From Aeromicrobium sp. IC_218 (GTDB lineage Bacteria > Actinomycetota > Actinomycetes > Propionibacteriales > Nocardioidaceae), in assembly GCF_004336805.1 (NCBI RefSeq), contig NZ_SJXM01000001.1:1-64000 (forward strand): a DNA stretch of 64,000 bases, in the 5' to 3' direction. Position numbers and translations under genes: made by a program. This document shows positions 11,042-16,589 of the stretch, piece after piece. Positions within the stretch are counted from its first letter, which is position 1; every line of letters starts with the position of its first letter. The notes below the pieces were generated by a model. The model was given only the letters and a program-made list of their open reading frames with translations. It was not told the origin of the DNA and did not search any database.

Positions 11042-11827
11042 TCAGCGCAGGAGCTGCAGGACGCCCTGCGGGACCTGGTTGGCCTGAGCCAGCATGGCCG
11101 TGCCGGCCTGCGACAGGATCTGGCTGCGGGTCAGGTTCATCATCTCCGAAGCCATGTCGGTGTCGCGGATGCGCGACTCCGACGCCGACAGGTTCTCGAT
11201 CGCGACGTTCACCGAGTTGATGGTGTGCTCGAAGCGGTTCTGGATCGCACCGAGCTCGGCGCGCTGCGTCGAGATGGTGGTGATCGCGGCCTGGACGGTG
11301 TTGCTGTCCGTGATGACCGCGGCCGAGACGTCGATGCCGGCCAGGGCCGTGTCCGAGATCTCGATCGTGTCGGCCGAGTCGTAGCCGGTCTGGAAGGTCA
11401 GCGCGGCGTCGCCGAAGAGCGCGATGCCGTTGAACTTCGTGTTGGCCTCGATGCGCTCGATCTCGGTGTGCAGCTGCGTGAACTCCGCCGACAGGGCCGC
11501 CTGCGACTCGGTGCTCTGCGTGCCGTTGTTGTGCTGGACGGCGAGGTCGTTCATGCGCTGGAGCATGGAGTGGACCTCGGTCAGCGCACCTTCAGCGGTC
11601 TGCGCGACGGAGATGCCGTCCTGGGCGTTGCGGACGGCGATCTTGAGTCCGCCGACCTGCGAGCGCAGGCCCTCGGAGATCGCGAGGCCGGCAGCGTCGT
11701 CGGCGGCGCGGTTGATGCGGAAGCCGCTGGACAGCTTCTCCAGGGACTTCGACTGAGCGTTCTGGGTGCTCGACAGGTTGCGGTACGAGTTCAGAGCGTC
11801 GATGTTCTGGTTGATGCGAAGACTCAT
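11042..11827 (-). CDS. fliC: Flagellin
   Basis: The filament subunit, 261 residues. The N-terminal D0/D1 region begins MSLRINQNIDALNSYRNLSS and contains KLSSGFRINRAADDAAGLAI. The C-terminal D1/D0 ends ESRIRDTDMASEMMNLTRSQ and then QAGTAMLAQANQVPQGVLQLL. The middle domain is very short, so this is a minimal flagellin like Bacillus Hag rather than the 500-residue enterobacterial type. AGGAGGG sits six bases before ATG. The 5' leader carries a CsrA-type hairpin (separate entry), and a sigma-28-like promoter overlaps the end of the sigma-factor gene. Confidence 0.97.
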   Translation of the reverse strand: MSLRINQNIDALNSYRNLSSTQNAQSKSLEKLSSGFRINRAADDAAGLAISEGLRSQVGGLKIAVRNAQDGISVAQTAEGALTEVHSMLQRMNDLAVQHNNGTQSTESQAALSAEFTQLHTEIERIEANTKFNGIALFGDAALTFQTGYDSADTIEISDTALAGIDVSAAVITDSNTVQAAITTISTQRAELGAIQNRFEHTINSVNVAIENLSASESRIRDTDMASEMMNLTRSQILSQAGTAMLAQANQVPQGVLQLLR

Positions 11828-11861
11828 GGGAAACCCTCCTGGTTGAGTGAGTCGTGCTGTG

Positions 11862-11889
11862 CCGAGGAACCCGTCCGTGGGCGCCTCGG
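11862..11889 (-). promoter_or_regulatory. Candidate CsrA-binding hairpin in the fliC leader
   Basis: Read on the transcript strand, CCGAGG pairs with CCTCGG; a small internal loop then leads to CCC paired with GGG, closing a six-base loop ACGGAC. The loop presents ACGGA, the ANGGA core recognised by CsrA. The second GGA is in the Shine-Dalgarno AGGAGGG at 11834-11840, 34-38 bases downstream. Bacillus hag has the same two-site layout. The csrA and fliW genes lie 4.5 kb away. Confidence 0.6.
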
Positions 11890-11895
11890 GGTGAC

Positions 11896-11922
11896 CTATC
11901 GGTCGGTCCCGGCTCCGCTTGA
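11896..11922 (-). promoter_or_regulatory. Sigma-28-like promoter of fliC
   Basis: Minus strand TCAA, 15 bases, ACCGATAG; it overlaps the last codons and stop of the sigma-factor gene. Spacing equals the flagellar sigma consensus (TAAA-N15-GCCGATAA), with nine of 12 positions matching. The implied start near 11888 would give a leader of about 60 bases containing the CsrA-type hairpin. Confidence 0.6.
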
Positions 11923-12777
11923 GGAGTCGGAAGAACTTTTTTTCAGGCCGACGCGTCGAGCGCGACGGCGGGGGGGGACCGCGACGGCGGGGCGGGCCAC
12001 CGCGGCGTGGCGCGCGGCGACCGCCGCGACGTACGCCTCGCGGCGACGCGCGGCGCAGCCGGCCTTCTTCTCCGCGGCCTGGTCCGTCAGCTCGGGGGAG
12101 AGCAGACGGCGCAGGGCCTCACGGAGCAGGACGAGCGCCTCGGCGCGCATCTGCGAGACGCGCGACTCGGTCACGCCGAGGGTCTCGGCGATCTCGGCCA
12201 TCGGGCGCTCGGCCAGGAAGTACTGCTCCACGACGTGGCGCAGGCGCTCGGGCAGCTCGGCGACCGCGTCGACGAGGTACTCCATCTCCTCACGGCCGAG
12301 CAGCGACTCGTCCGGGCGGGGAGAGCGGCTGACCAGCTGGTCGGCGAGCGTGAAGTCGCCGGCGCCGTCGAGCGAGAAGACCTGCGAGCGAGCGACGTCG
12401 CCCTGGTTCGCGGCCACCTCGTCCTCGCGCAGGCCGGCCGCGCTGGCCAGCTCGGCGGTGCTCGGCGCGCGGCCGAGGGTGGACGTGAGGGTGGCGCGGG
12501 TCGCCTCCAGCTCACGCGCCCGGCGGCGGACGCTGCGCGACGCCCAGTCCAGGCCGCGCAGCTCGTCCAGGACCGCGCCGCGGATGCGGGTGGCGGCGTA
12601 GCGGGCGAACGGGACGCCGCGCTCCTCCTGGAACGACTGTGCCGCCTGCACCAGCGCCAGCATCCCGGCCGAGGTGAGGTCGTCACGGCTCACGTGGCTC
12701 GGCACCCGCCCCATCGTCTCGCGGACGATGTGACCGACCAGTGCCAAATTCGACGTGACCAGCTCGTGGTTGTTCAT
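11896..12777 (-). CDS. Flagellar-type RNA polymerase sigma factor (FliA/WhiG family)
   Basis: A 293-residue sigma-70 family protein lacking region 1. Region 2 spans about residues 5-75 (NLALVGHIVRETMGRV, then VPFARYAATRIRGAVLDELR). Region 3 is around 80-130, and region 4 has a helix-turn-helix at 194-213 (AEIAETLGVTESRVSQMRAE). It is expected to read the TCAA-N15-RCCGA sites found before fliC and flgB. An unusual tail (about 232-293) is rich in Ala/Arg and ends in Lys/Ser; normal FliA stops near residue 240-260. The start at 12777 has GGAAAGGGG upstream. Confidence 0.88.
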   Translation of the reverse strand: MNNHELVTSNLALVGHIVRETMGRVPSHVSRDDLTSAGMLALVQAAQSFQEERGVPFARYAATRIRGAVLDELRGLDWASRSVRRRARELEATRATLTSTLGRAPSTAELASAAGLREDEVAANQGDVARSQVFSLDGAGDFTLADQLVSRSPRPDESLLGREEMEYLVDAVAELPERLRHVVEQYFLAERPMAEIAETLGVTESRVSQMRAEALVLLREALRRLLSPELTDQAAEKKAGCAARRREAYVAAVAARHAAVARPAVAVPPRRRARRVGLKKSSSDSSSGAGTDR

Positions 12778-13098: not shown

Positions 13099-13578
13099 GT
13101 GGAGGAGCTGTCACTCATCCTCGCCGACGAGCGAGAGGCCCTCGAGCGTCTGCAGTTCGCGCTCGAGACCGAGCGTCTCGTGCTCGCGAGCGGACGCACG
13201 CGCTGGTTGATGCGCGCCGCCAAGGGCGTCGAGGACGTGCTGGAGGAGCTCCGCGCCGTCGAGGTCATGCGCGCCGTCGCCGCCGACCAGGCCGCCGAGG
13301 CGCTGGGCCTGCCCAGCAACCCGAGCCTGCAGGCGCTGGCCGAGGCCGCCGACGAGCCGTGGCGCACGATCCTGCTGGACCACCACAGCGCCTTCGTCTC
13401 CACCGTGCACGAGGTCACCGACCTCGCCGAGAACAACCGTGAGCTCATCACGTCCGGCTACACCTCGGCCCGCGAGACGCTCCTGGCGCTCGGCAAGGGC
13501 GCCGAGGGCTACAGCCCCGACGGCACCGCGGCCGTCATCGCCTCCACCCCGCACCGACTCGTCGACAGGACCCTGTGA
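13099..13578 (+). CDS. flgN: FlgN-type flagellar chaperone
   Basis: A 159-residue helical protein of the FlgN type, which keeps the hook-associated proteins FlgK and FlgL soluble before export. It starts VEELSLILADEREALERLQF and is all-helical and Glu/Ala/Leu-rich. The C-terminal SGYTSARETLLALGKGAEGY is followed by a tail. I chose the GTG at 13099 because AAAGGGAG lies nine bases upstream; longer readings run into the control region. FlgN proteins diverge strongly, and position directly before flgK supports the call. Confidence 0.82.
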   Translation: MEELSLILADEREALERLQFALETERLVLASGRTRWLMRAAKGVEDVLEELRAVEVMRAVAADQAAEALGLPSNPSLQALAEAADEPWRTILLDHHSAFVSTVHEVTDLAENNRELITSGYTSARETLLALGKGAEGYSPDGTAAVIASTPHRLVDRTL

Positions 13579-13579
13579 C

Positions 13580-14974
13580 ATGGCCGGCACCTTCTCCTCC
13601 TTCGGCAGCGCCCTCTCGGGCCTGCGCTACGGCCAGACGGCCATGGACGTCGCGAGCCTGAACCTCGCGAACGTCGACTCCAAGGGCTACACCCGCCAGC
13701 GCGTCGAGGCCTCGGCGTCGACCAGCGCGGCCAACGCCGCGATGTACGCCCGCGGCAACAGCTACGGCGACGGCGTCGCGGTCGACGGCGTCTCGCGCGC
13801 GGTCGACCTGCTGCTGAACAGCCGGGCCCGCACCGAGCACGCCACCCAGCAGTTCCTCGACATCCAGGCCGACGTGCTCAAGCGCGTCGAGGCCGGCGTC
13901 AGCGAGCCGGGCAAGACCGGCCTCAACTCCGCCCTCGACGGCTTCCGCAAGTCGTGGGGCGACCTGGTCAACGCGCCGGACCAGAGCGCCGCGCGCTCGC
14001 AGGTCATCGCCGCGGCGAACACGCTCAGCGAGGCGCTGCGCTCGCAGGCCCGCATGCTGCAGGGCGAGGACACCGACGCCCGCCTGCGCGTGGTCGACAA
14101 CGTCGACAAGATCAACACGATCGCCGGCGAGATGGCTGCGCTGAACGAGAAGATCCAGATCGCCTCGTTCGACGGCACCGCGAACAACACGCTGCTGGAC
14201 CGCCGCGACCAGCTCATGCTCGAGCTGAGCCAGCTCGGCGGCGCCGAGTCGACCATCCAGTCCAACGGCACCGTCCAGGTGAACCTCGGCGGTCTGGCCC
14301 TGGTCAGCGGCAAGACCGCCTCGACGCTCTCGGTCAGCACGGGCATCGCGGCCGACGGCACGGCGACCGGTGACCCGATCACCTTCGACCTCAGCCAGGG
14401 CGGCACGTCCCTGGGCAGCCCGACCATCGCCACCGGCACGGTCGGCGGCCTGGTGCGCTCGGTCGACGTGACGATCGCCGGCATGCGCGACGAGCTGAAC
14501 ACGATCGCCGCGACGTTCGCCGACACGGTCAACGGCCGCCACACCGGCGGCTTCGACCAGGACGGCGCCGCGGGCGAGGCGATGTTCTCCTACACGGCCG
14601 GCAACGCGGCGGCCACGATCACCGTGGCGATCACCGACCCGCGCAAGGTCGCGGCGTCGTCGGTCGGCGGCGGCGTGCTCAACACCGACAACGCCAACTG
14701 GCTGGGCAACAACAAGACGGTCGAGGGCGCCTACCAGTCCTGGGTCGCCACGCTCGGCTCCTCGGTCTCGGCGGCGACCCGCCTGTCGACCAACCAGAAG
14801 GCCCTGACGAACCAGGTCGACGGCGCCATCGAGCAGCTCGGCGGCGTCAGCATCGACGAGGAGATGGTCAACCTCGTGAGCGCCCAGCGCATCTACGAGG
14901 CCGCCGCCCGCGTCATGACGACGCTCGACTCGGTCCTGGACACCCTGATCAACCGAACCGGAGTGACCCGCTGA
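13580..14974 (+). CDS. flgK: Flagellar hook-associated protein 1, FlgK
   Basis: FlgK forms the first hook-filament junction ring. From ATG 13580 it has 464 residues. The N-terminal signature is ALSGLRYGQTAMDVASLNLANVDSKGYTR (split here across residues 10-38). The C-terminal helix is SIDEEMVNLVSAQRIYEAAA, then RVMTTLDSVLDTLINR. The central part is a Thr/Gly/Ser-rich beta region. An upstream extension overlaps flgN in another frame and is spurious. The stop overlaps the flgL start by one base. Confidence 0.96.
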   Translation: MAGTFSSFGSALSGLRYGQTAMDVASLNLANVDSKGYTRQRVEASASTSAANAAMYARGNSYGDGVAVDGVSRAVDLLLNSRARTEHATQQFLDIQADVLKRVEAGVSEPGKTGLNSALDGFRKSWGDLVNAPDQSAARSQVIAAANTLSEALRSQARMLQGEDTDARLRVVDNVDKINTIAGEMAALNEKIQIASFDGTANNTLLDRRDQLMLELSQLGGAESTIQSNGTVQVNLGGLALVSGKTASTLSVSTGIAADGTATGDPITFDLSQGGTSLGSPTIATGTVGGLVRSVDVTIAGMRDELNTIAATFADTVNGRHTGGFDQDGAAGEAMFSYTAGNAAATITVAITDPRKVAASSVGGGVLNTDNANWLGNNKTVEGAYQSWVATLGSSVSAATRLSTNQKALTNQVDGAIEQLGGVSIDEEMVNLVSAQRIYEAAARVMTTLDSVLDTLINRTGVTR

Positions 14975-15861
14975 TGAGCATCGGACGCGTGACGCACGGC
15001 AGCATGACCCAGTCGAGCCTGGCCAACCTGCAGGCCTCGCTGGGCCGGCTGGCGCAGAGCCAGGAGCAGCTGACCACCGGCAAGCGGATCAACCGCGCCT
15101 CGGACGACCCGACCGACGCCGCGCGTGCCATGCGCACCCGCAGCGCGCTGGCCGACCAGGAGCAGTACGCCCGCAACGGCCAGGACGGCGCCACCTGGAT
15201 GAACCTGACGGACTCGCGCCTGCAGTCGATGAACTCCTCGCTGCTCCGCGTGCGCGAGATCGGCCTCATCGGCGGCACCGACACCAACACCGGCACGGCC
15301 CGCGAGGCGCTGGCCGTCGAGGTCGAGCAGCTGCGCGACAAGCTGCTCACCGAGGCCAACGCCACCTACCTGGGCCGCCCGATCTTCGGCGGCATCACCG
15401 CCGGCGACAAGGCCTTCGCCGACGACGGCACGTTCATCGGCACCACCGGCGCCGTGCAGCGCACGGTCGCCGACGGCGTCGACGTGACGATCAACTCCGA
15501 CGGTGCCGCGCTGTTCGGCAGCGGCGCGACCTCGATGTTCGCCGAGCTCGACGCGCTGGCCAACGCGATCCGAGCCGGGGACAAGACCGCGATCCAGGCC
15601 GGCATCGACCAGGTCGACGCCCGCAAGGGCAAGATCATCGACGAGCTGTCGTCGGTGGGCACCCGCACCAACCGCGTCGAGAGCGCGATCGACGCGGCCA
15701 AGGACTCGGTGCTGTCCCTCAACTCCAACGTCTCCGAGCTCGAGAACGTCGAGCTGGCCGAGGCGATGATGCAGGTGCAGATGCACCAGGTGTCCTACCA
15801 GGCGGCCCTGGCCGCGACCTCCAAGGTCATCCAGCCCAGCCTCATGGACTTCCTGCGATGA
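14974..15861 (+). CDS. flgL: Flagellar hook-associated protein 3, FlgL
   Basis: FlgL is the second junction protein and resembles flagellin at its ends. The 295-residue product starts MSIGRVTHGSMTQSSLANLQ and contains EQLTTGKRINRASDDPTDAA, the flagellin-like N-terminal motif. It ends MHQVSYQAALAATSKVIQPS followed by LMDFLR. The length is normal. The ATG overlaps the flgK stop, and the stop overlaps fliW by four bases. Confidence 0.95.
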   Translation: MSIGRVTHGSMTQSSLANLQASLGRLAQSQEQLTTGKRINRASDDPTDAARAMRTRSALADQEQYARNGQDGATWMNLTDSRLQSMNSSLLRVREIGLIGGTDTNTGTAREALAVEVEQLRDKLLTEANATYLGRPIFGGITAGDKAFADDGTFIGTTGAVQRTVADGVDVTINSDGAALFGSGATSMFAELDALANAIRAGDKTAIQAGIDQVDARKGKIIDELSSVGTRTNRVESAIDAAKDSVLSLNSNVSELENVELAEAMMQVQMHQVSYQAALAATSKVIQPSLMDFLR

Positions 15862-16301
15862 GCGGCCCGACGACGAAGGTGCGTGACATGACTGCAGCGA
15901 CGACCGAGGCGCCCGCCGTCGAGACCGTCCCCACGCTCGAGATGGTCCAGCCGATCCTCGGCTTCCCGGCCGCCCGGCACTTCACGATCGTGGACCACCA
16001 CGACAGCCTGCTGCGCACGCTGCAGTGCCTGGACGACACCGACCTGCGCTTCCTGGTCGTGCCGCCGAACGTCTTCTACCCCGACTACGCCCCGGTCGTC
16101 AGCGACCAGGTCGTCGAGGACCTGGAGATCACCGCCGAGAGCGACGTGCTGCTGCTCGTCCTGCTCAGCGCGCCCGACGGCCTGGCCACCGCCACGGTCA
16201 ACCTGCGCGCCCCGCTGGTCATCAACGTCCGCACGCGCCGGGCCGCCCAGGTCGTCCTGGAGGACCAGGACCACCCCTTGGCTGCGCCTCTCCAGTCCTA
16301 G
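15858..16301 (+). CDS. fliW: Flagellar assembly factor FliW
   Basis: FliW binds either flagellin or CsrA; when free flagellin has been exported, FliW releases from it and sequesters CsrA, relieving repression of flagellin translation. The 147-residue protein matches FliW in length and layout: GFPAARHFTIVDHHDSLLR, LRFLVVPPNVFYPDYAP and a closing LRAPLVINVRTRRAAQVVL. Its N-terminal 30 residues are a variable extension. It overlaps flgL by four bases and is 18 bases before csrA. Confidence 0.93.
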   Translation: MSGPTTKVRDMTAATTEAPAVETVPTLEMVQPILGFPAARHFTIVDHHDSLLRTLQCLDDTDLRFLVVPPNVFYPDYAPVVSDQVVEDLEITAESDVLLLVLLSAPDGLATATVNLRAPLVINVRTRRAAQVVLEDQDHPLAAPLQS

Positions 16302-16319: not shown

Positions 16320-16589
16320 GTGCTGGTTCTGAGCCGCCGCGCAGGCGAGAGCATCGCCATCGGCGATGACGTGACGATCACGGTGCTCGACGTCCGCGGT
16401 GACGTCGTCCGCATCGGCATCGACGCGCCGCGTTCCGTGGCGGTCCACCGCACCGAGGTGCTTGTCCAGGTCGAGGCCAGCAACAAGGCCGCCGCCTCCC
16501 CCGACGACGACGTCGTGTCGTCGCTGTCGCAGGCCCTGCGCAAGCCGGCCGACGACGACGAGACCCCCGAGGACGACGCCCGGGCCTGA
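16320..16589 (+). CDS. csrA: Translational regulator CsrA
   Basis: CsrA is a small dimeric RNA-binding protein that blocks translation at ANGGA sites; its likely target here is the fliC leader. The GTG-started 89-residue protein has the invariant MLVLSRRAGESIAIGDDVTI start, with Arg6 used for RNA binding, and GIDAPRSVAVHRTEV, which contains the second RNA-contact region. A 30-residue acidic tail (ending DDDETPEDDARA) is longer than in Bacillus CsrA. It is directly downstream of fliW, the usual antagonist pair. Confidence 0.95.
   Translation: MLVLSRRAGESIAIGDDVTITVLDVRGDVVRIGIDAPRSVAVHRTEVLVQVEASNKAAASPDDDVVSSLSQALRKPADDDETPEDDARA

Follow-up and report, generated by a model that had tools for sequence, protein, structure and literature searches.

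In 2008, when FlgM was noted to be absent from the few genomes then known, the question was raised of what controls the late flagellar genes in its place (PMC2587704). The absence has since been stated for later classes (PMC10746217). For Actinoplanes missouriensis, co-transcription of the flagellar genes with no checkpoint has been reported (reviewed in PMC8306008). We analysed a stretch of 64,000 nucleotides from the genome of Aeromicrobium sp. IC_218, called the window below. In the known scheme, CsrA bound to the leader keeps the ribosome off, FliW frees the message, and unexported flagellin captures FliW (PMC7652899, PMC6529632). We propose, with considerable confidence, that the 5' leader of fliC is likewise a translational switch operated by CsrA, with release by FliW and feedback by flagellin.

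The fliC leader and its surroundings

On the minus strand of the window, the gene order is a sigma-factor gene, fliC, and then fliD and fliS. The fliC gene (11042-11827) encodes a flagellin of 261 amino acids with matches to Flagellin_N (2.8e-43) and Flagellin_C (3.8e-29). The FliC of A. massiliense, the nearest named relative, is 98% identical to it. The next gene upstream (11896-12777, minus strand) encodes a fliA-like sigma factor with matches to Sigma70_r2, r3, and r4. On the plus strand lie flgK (13439-14974; FlgK_D1, 7.2e-52), flgL (14974-15861; Flagellin_N, 3.4e-20, and its place after flgK), fliW (15858-16301; Pfam FliW, 6.7e-33), and csrA (16320-16589; Pfam CsrA, 2.6e-24). The ATG of fliW overlaps the flgL stop codon (ATGA). 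The csrA gene has a GTG start 18 bases past the end of fliW, encodes 89 amino acids, and is the single PF02599 match in the whole genome. This order and the Pfam matches agree with the original prediction, in which fliW and csrA end the adjacent flagellar operon.

The hairpin SL1 lies in the fliC leader at 11862-11889 of the minus strand. Read from 11889 to 11862, it is CCGAGG-C-GCCC-[ACGGAC]-GGGU-U-CCUCGG. The stem has ten pairs, including one G.U, is interrupted by a single C.U mismatch, and closes a loop of six bases. It is present in both the minimum-energy and the centroid structures computed for the leader. From its fold, conservation, and covariation, it is presumed to be a high-affinity CsrA site of the BS1 type. 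The loop ACGGAC (11873-11878, minus strand), read on the sequence, has the form ANGGAN, the hexaloop class that NMR has revealed in RsmE targets of high affinity (PMC7652899). When Rfam covariance models were run over the window, only two tRNAs exceeded the gathering score, and SL1 fell in no Rfam family.

The Shine-Dalgarno sequence AGGAGGG (11834-11840, minus strand), taken from the sequence and the predicted fold, holds a second GGA at 11837-11839. This GGA follows the loop GGA by 37 nt. Both the ACGGAC loop and a second GGA about 35 bases downstream had been predicted from the letters of the window, and both stood when coordinates, letters, and folds were checked. The Shine-Dalgarno copy reads CAGGA, with the GGA core only and no ANGGA, and in the predicted fold the loop AGGAG is flanked by AACC and GGUU. 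GGA is contained in any strong Shine-Dalgarno sequence, so this second site is not diagnostic alone. The leader nevertheless combines an ANGGA inside an upstream hairpin loop with a GGA over the Shine-Dalgarno sequence, as a hag-type leader does.

By eye, a promoter can be recognised upstream of SL1 as CTCA (11920-11923), N17, and CCGAT (11898-11902) on the minus strand (11898-11923). We call it sigma-28-like by comparison with the sigma-28 consensus, and from it the fliC transcript would start near 11891. The sigma-factor gene upstream and the promoter motif (window 11896-11923) overlap at the 3' end of that gene. The same pattern occurs in 59 of 94 flagellin leaders of the comparison described below, against 2.1% of shuffled ones. 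The median distance from the end of the motif to the start of the SL1 stem is 12 nt in those 59, which would put SL1 close to the 5' end of the transcript. SL1 is also an inverted repeat that begins 6 bases past the stop codon of the sigma-factor gene, a position that would suit the terminator of that gene or a palindromic DNA operator. A GC stem with a U run, as in an intrinsic terminator, was not found at SL1, nor was any terminator-like site, and SL1 lies downstream of the presumed transcript start. The covariation of the stem, described below, speaks against the operator form.

Conservation and covariation of SL1

By single-genome evidence, SL1 is unremarkable. The fold-energy z was -1.0 for the leader alone, which is not beyond chance, and -1.9 for a shorter stretch. 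A covariance model of SL1 gave 9 matches at E<=1 in its own genome, and 8 and 5 matches in two genomes of the same genus without a flagellin match. Across 14 genomes, with 150 first-look candidates scored in each, the model matched several times per genome, in flagellated and non-flagellated ones alike. SL1 is the top-ranked of 104 model matches at E<=10 within the window. These weak z values and background-rate matches are what a chance hairpin in GC-rich DNA could give, and the decision between chance and function falls to the comparison of leaders.

Leaders were taken from a scan of named genomes, covering the best 80 of 125 loci, and from the class and phylum samples. Of 118 actinobacterial flagellin leaders in total, 99 remained after a 90% identity cut applied to their last 70 nt. 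A hand list removed matches to flgL, ambiguous starts, and starts that had been read more than once. This list includes L177 and L166, the latter being the orphan flagellin of genome G162, which lacks the hairpin and is counted in the csrA co-occurrence below. Five further leaders (L003, L004, L005, L006, and L009) were dropped because their genomes were already represented, as judged by contig places and not base by base. ANGGA is found at -80 to -28 in 94 of the 99 leaders. The remaining five comprise a Modestobacter copy, one of the six flagellin copies of G135, which has no hairpin, the leaders of the csrA-less genomes G333 and G430, and a wrong start call (L167), where a start at 398 puts the hairpin at -45. 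Among the 94, in which the A, GG, and A of the loop are fixed by the choice of anchor, loop position 2 is C in 76, and all but one (93) have C, U, or A at position 6. The GGA-to-GGA distance ranges from 22 to 52 nt across the leaders.

The stem around the ANGGA loop scored a mean of 5.73 in 62 actinobacterial leaders (before de-duplication, zeros included), against 0.75 with shuffled flanks. A hairpin score of at least 4 was reached by 0.57% of 6000 dinucleotide-shuffled leaders. Covariation was measured in 55 leaders that hold one ANGGA candidate and were anchored blind to the stem. Pairs 1-7 form in 90.4% of 364 cells, compared with 60.6% when partners are shuffled, and both sides have changed in 92 cells versus 30. 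The covariation score is 0.680, against 0.177 for the partner shuffle, which ignores relatedness, and 0.07-0.17 after sliding the 3' strand one to three columns, a control that retains relatedness. The stem is thus kept by compensatory changes, another trait of the hag type. Stem and loop conservation in relatives had been named beforehand as the test of the prediction, and it held, with an ANGGA loop and a covarying stem across many actinobacterial families.

At the level of sequence comparison, conservation and covariation are decisive in putting SL1 far beyond shuffles. They refute a chance hairpin, to which we leave hardly any probability at all. They also bear on the DNA operator. Letters on the two sides of the stem change together around an asymmetric loop that does not vary, which argues for an RNA element rather than a protein-bound DNA palindrome. 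A terminator or operator is therefore disfavoured, and we regard it as very improbable.

The genome-wide model matches were also considered as further CsrA targets and rejected, since they occur regardless of flagellation. The best match in the genome itself (L187) falls within a long reading frame judged by eye to resemble a HAD hydrolase. The best match in A. massiliense (L188) lies elsewhere, and for this reason no additional target is claimed.

The hairpin and its presumed protein partners

In the class sample of 393 genomes, Flagellin_N was matched in 58 and CsrA in 58, with both in 51 and 7 + 7 discordant (Fisher test, 1.8e-48). The hairpin accompanies csrA as well. Counted at a score of at least 4, for which four pairs are enough, it is present in 41 of the 42 csrA-bearing genomes with a readable flagellin leader (33 of the 42 reach at least 5) and in 0 of 2 csrA-less ones. 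The exception is G162, whose orphan flagellin stands beside a gene that by eye is phosphate transporter-like. Nine more csrA-bearing genomes have a Flagellin_N match outside the 42, and these matches are mostly flgL-like or partial only. Among the diverged flagellin-like copies in those nine, G291 (L181) has the hairpin, G422 (L179) has a 3-pair stem, and none was callable in G324 (L177). The seven flagellin-only genomes include four under the family cut-off and G124, whose match is weak. The remaining two, G333 and G430, have no FliW match, no CsrA match, and no hairpin. FliW was matched in 52 of the 58 flagellin-matching genomes, and in three cases (L025, L030, and L073) csrA lies elsewhere in the genome than beside fliW.

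Flagellin without a CsrA match was also found in Sphingomonas (2), a Neisseriaceae isolate (1), and Sulfurivirga (2), and no such hairpin was seen in them. The phylum search covered 58 of 63 genomes, the remaining five belonging to the class sample. CsrA was matched in 54 of the 58 flagellin-matching genomes searched, 57 of which lie outside the class. In several other actinobacterial classes csrA is present, yet many leaders have no SL1. Among 70 leaders inspected by eye, some low-GC phylum members carry UGGC[AAGGAN]GCCA. In seven leaders (L195, L204, L209, L214, L216, L217, and L224) SL1 is absent, and the Shine-Dalgarno sequence itself appears by eye to sit in a short hairpin resembling GAC[ACGGAG]GUC. 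In Pontiellaceae (L081, L082, L085, and L088), some flagellin copies have a hairpin with the loop [AAGGAU] or [AAGGAC] near -48, and others do not.

Two genomes, a MAG (L032) and a draft (L034), have the hairpin and gave no CsrA match in the genome searched. Together with the fact that CsrA binding is a prediction, they leave room for a different RNA-binding protein as the reader of the loop. The loop belongs to the known CsrA/RsmE class, and hairpin and csrA co-occur, and we regard such a reader as very improbable. SL1 is very probably a docking site for CsrA.

The CsrA protein of the window fits this role. Its residues 1-56 align without gaps to solved CsrA/RsmE chains, and it has the RNA-binding R44. 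By plain position, R6 is present in 64 of 64 distinct actinobacterial CsrA proteins, R44 in 62, and N55 in 59. In L019 and L024 an insertion shifts the numbering, so that R44 and N55 are missed while HR and AN are still held, and the other three misses at N55 carry Q55 and belong to Modestobacter. V51 and N55 are FliW-contact residues mapped in Campylobacter. N55 was first found in Bacillus, and it is required for FliW binding in both (PMC7829508). As far as residues go, the window has the hag-type combination of FliW with a CsrA bearing V51 and N55. The 1y00 chain, which we take to be E. coli CsrA, has K at position 55. The best solved match of the window FliW is the FliW chain of 5dmb, an entry that also contains a CsrA chain. 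The covarying stem, the hairpin that tracks csrA, and the arginine and asparagine of CsrA support reading the fliC leader as one of the hag type.

Some csrA genes stand apart from this pattern. A lone csrA without a flagellin match occurs in five genomes of one genus (G184, G367, G406, G419, and G465) and in G310 and G409, and the locus L254:2558-2806 belongs to this set of observations. G351, of the same genus as the G184 group, carries two, a CsrA in the flagellar cluster and a weaker one besides. In L138, L141, and L142, a hairpin with an ANGGA hexaloop lies about 38 nt before the csrA start (in L138, CGGGCGC[ACGGAG]GCGCCCG), which suggests autoregulation of csrA in these three. No such hairpin was seen before csrA in the window.

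A second helix and the proposed switch

Downstream of SL1, the linker word GACUCA (11848-11853, minus strand) is complementary to 11821-11826 and forms the 5' strand of a second helix, SL2. The 3' strand, UGAGUC (11821-11826, minus strand), comprises bases 2-3 of the start codon, codon 2, and the first base of codon 3. In the predicted fold, GACUCA pairs with the UGAGUC of AUGAGUC and encloses the Shine-Dalgarno sequence. Across the 94 leaders the two strands covary. The best helix between linker and start region has a mean weight of 12.9 for a leader's own start, 10.9 with swapped starts (0/300 as high), and 9.2 with shuffled linkers. Pairs such as GACCUA/UGGGUC, GAGCCA/UGGCUC, and UCCCA/UGGGA illustrate the matching. 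The 51 leaders with an ATGGG start give 13.98 against 13.19 swapped (0/300 as high), and folding gives 3.80 expected linker-start pairs for own starts against 2.57 for swapped ones. In 18 phylogenetically independent pairs with different starts, own exceeds swapped in 14, is lower in 3, and ties in 1 (sign test, 0.006; Wilcoxon, 0.006). Control leaders cut to the median linker length gave 7.4 versus 7.5 swapped and 5.95 shuffled for flgL (2/50 shuffles as high), and 9.1 versus 10.5 swapped for csrA.

Other counts temper this result. A stricter count that requires a four-base core first, made among the 82 leaders with such a core, gave no clear excess of observed over permuted at +6 (48 vs 43.4) or +7 (36 vs 36.5). 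Linker-start matches of 6 bp occur in 41 of 94 fliC, 9 of 28 flgL, and 10 of 29 csrA leaders, the control stretches being longer than many fliC linkers. Among leaders that all begin with ATGAGT, the own-versus-swapped test is flat (178/300 swaps as high) because their start regions are alike, and the f27 leaders show little or no SL2. SL2 is thus likely to be real in most but not all lineages. It is moderately supported by the sequence comparison and less certain than SL1.

The switch builds on what was observed: the anatomy of the leader and its conservation, the covariation of SL1 and, more weakly, of SL2, the co-occurrence with csrA, and the key residues. The steps of binding, bridging, repression, release by FliW, and feedback are modelled on Bacillus and Campylobacter. 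A sigma-28 type promoter would start the RNA a few bases upstream of SL1. A CsrA dimer would then place one pocket on the ACGGA loop of SL1 and the other on the GGA of the Shine-Dalgarno sequence, which would be displayed in a loop inside SL2. Since SL2 would also tie up the start codon, ribosomes would be excluded. FliW, encoded beside csrA, would bind CsrA next to the RNA pocket and release the message. Cytoplasmic flagellin awaiting export would capture FliW and in this way shut off its own translation. We propose that with SL1 as its CsrA site, the filament protein is made only at the pace of export.

CsrA could also act on a conserved SL1 through message stability or activation instead of a ribosome block, with the 5' hairpin mainly a stabiliser. 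Hairpins near a 5' end can protect RNA, and SL1 appears to lie near that end in the 59 leaders with a promoter motif. In B. subtilis, CsrA also restricts the hag transcript level (PMC6529632), a further point in favour of this explanation. A plain stabiliser needs no fixed ANGGA loop, however, and SL2 draws the Shine-Dalgarno sequence and the start codon into the design. We consider control by stability unlikely.

Control of translation by CsrA, as proposed here, is of the kind known from Bacillus hag and Campylobacter flaA, and the comparison supports its extension to Actinomycetes at large. The B. subtilis hag system (Yakhnin 2007 and Mukherjee 2011, via PMC7652899, PMC6529632, and PMC2587704) likewise has a flagellin leader with two CsrA sites, one over the Shine-Dalgarno sequence, and a fliW-csrA pair. 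Bacillus differs in having FlgM as well, and in stem sequence and GC content. A hexaloop hairpin like SL1 is found in Paenibacillus and Cohnella leaders, as in UCCAC[AUGGAU]GUGGA at -36/-37 in Paenibacillus. The flaA leader of Campylobacter jejuni also folds into a pair of stem-loops. The second one covers the ribosome-binding site, and compensatory changes are seen among members of the genus (PMC4894983). There, both loops are ANGGA and fliW lies apart from csrA (PMC4894983), whereas the second loop of the Aeromicrobium leader offers a bare Shine-Dalgarno GGA and its helix includes the start codon. RsmE targets share the loop class and differ in the protein, RsmE, and in the antagonists, which in gammaproteobacteria are small RNAs and not FliW (PMC7652899).

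Among actinobacteria, the closest precedent is Kineococcus radiotolerans, which is flagellated, has csrA with the flagellar genes, and was predicted to have hag-like control by CsrA (PMC2587704). That proposal of 2008 was based on a 9-of-12 match to the Shine-Dalgarno site in one genome, and its described evidence includes no upstream hairpin or covariation (PMC2587704). Among the papers listed in searches of the open-access literature, we recognised no account of the actinobacterial form of the leader apart from this genome paper. SL2, as a second covarying helix, is the newest element.

A search for FlgM found it in 0 of the 42 csrA-bearing flagellated Actinomycetes and in three of 14 control genomes, namely E. 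coli, B. subtilis, and T. maritima. With FlgM missing from these 42 genomes, FliW-CsrA may be their main flagellin checkpoint. A covarying putative CsrA site on most actinomycete flagellin messages would be a concrete answer to the question of control without FlgM. CsrA is best studied in small-RNA networks, and the site lends support to flagellin homeostasis as an old, perhaps primary, task of this protein beyond such networks. A more specific form of the proposal takes SL1 and SL2 together as a two-helix device. In it, CsrA would lock a closed state that has already formed, the device would be the main assembly checkpoint in Actinomycetes that lack FlgM, and one Modestobacter copy would escape CsrA. 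The covariation of the linker would span the start codon and codons 2-3 and reach even the third base where codon 2 is glycine. In Modestobacter, FliW has apparently been lost, and one copy has dropped the loop GGA and kept the stem. We advance this form tentatively, as somewhat short of an even chance.

Seven Modestobacter-type genomes (L036, L038, L046, L076, L077, L087, and L090) have csrA and the hairpin and no FliW match, so release by FliW cannot be universal. Three of them (L038, L046, and L077) have a CsrA with Q at residue 55. In four Modestobacter genomes, a flagellin copy beginning MSLVVNSN keeps the stem CCGCCGC/GCGGCGG and has the loop ACGGCU (L038:4592-4702, L046:5891-6001, L076:3715-3825, and L077:4982-5092). 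Only the GGA is lost in these copies, and their sister copies have ACGGAU.
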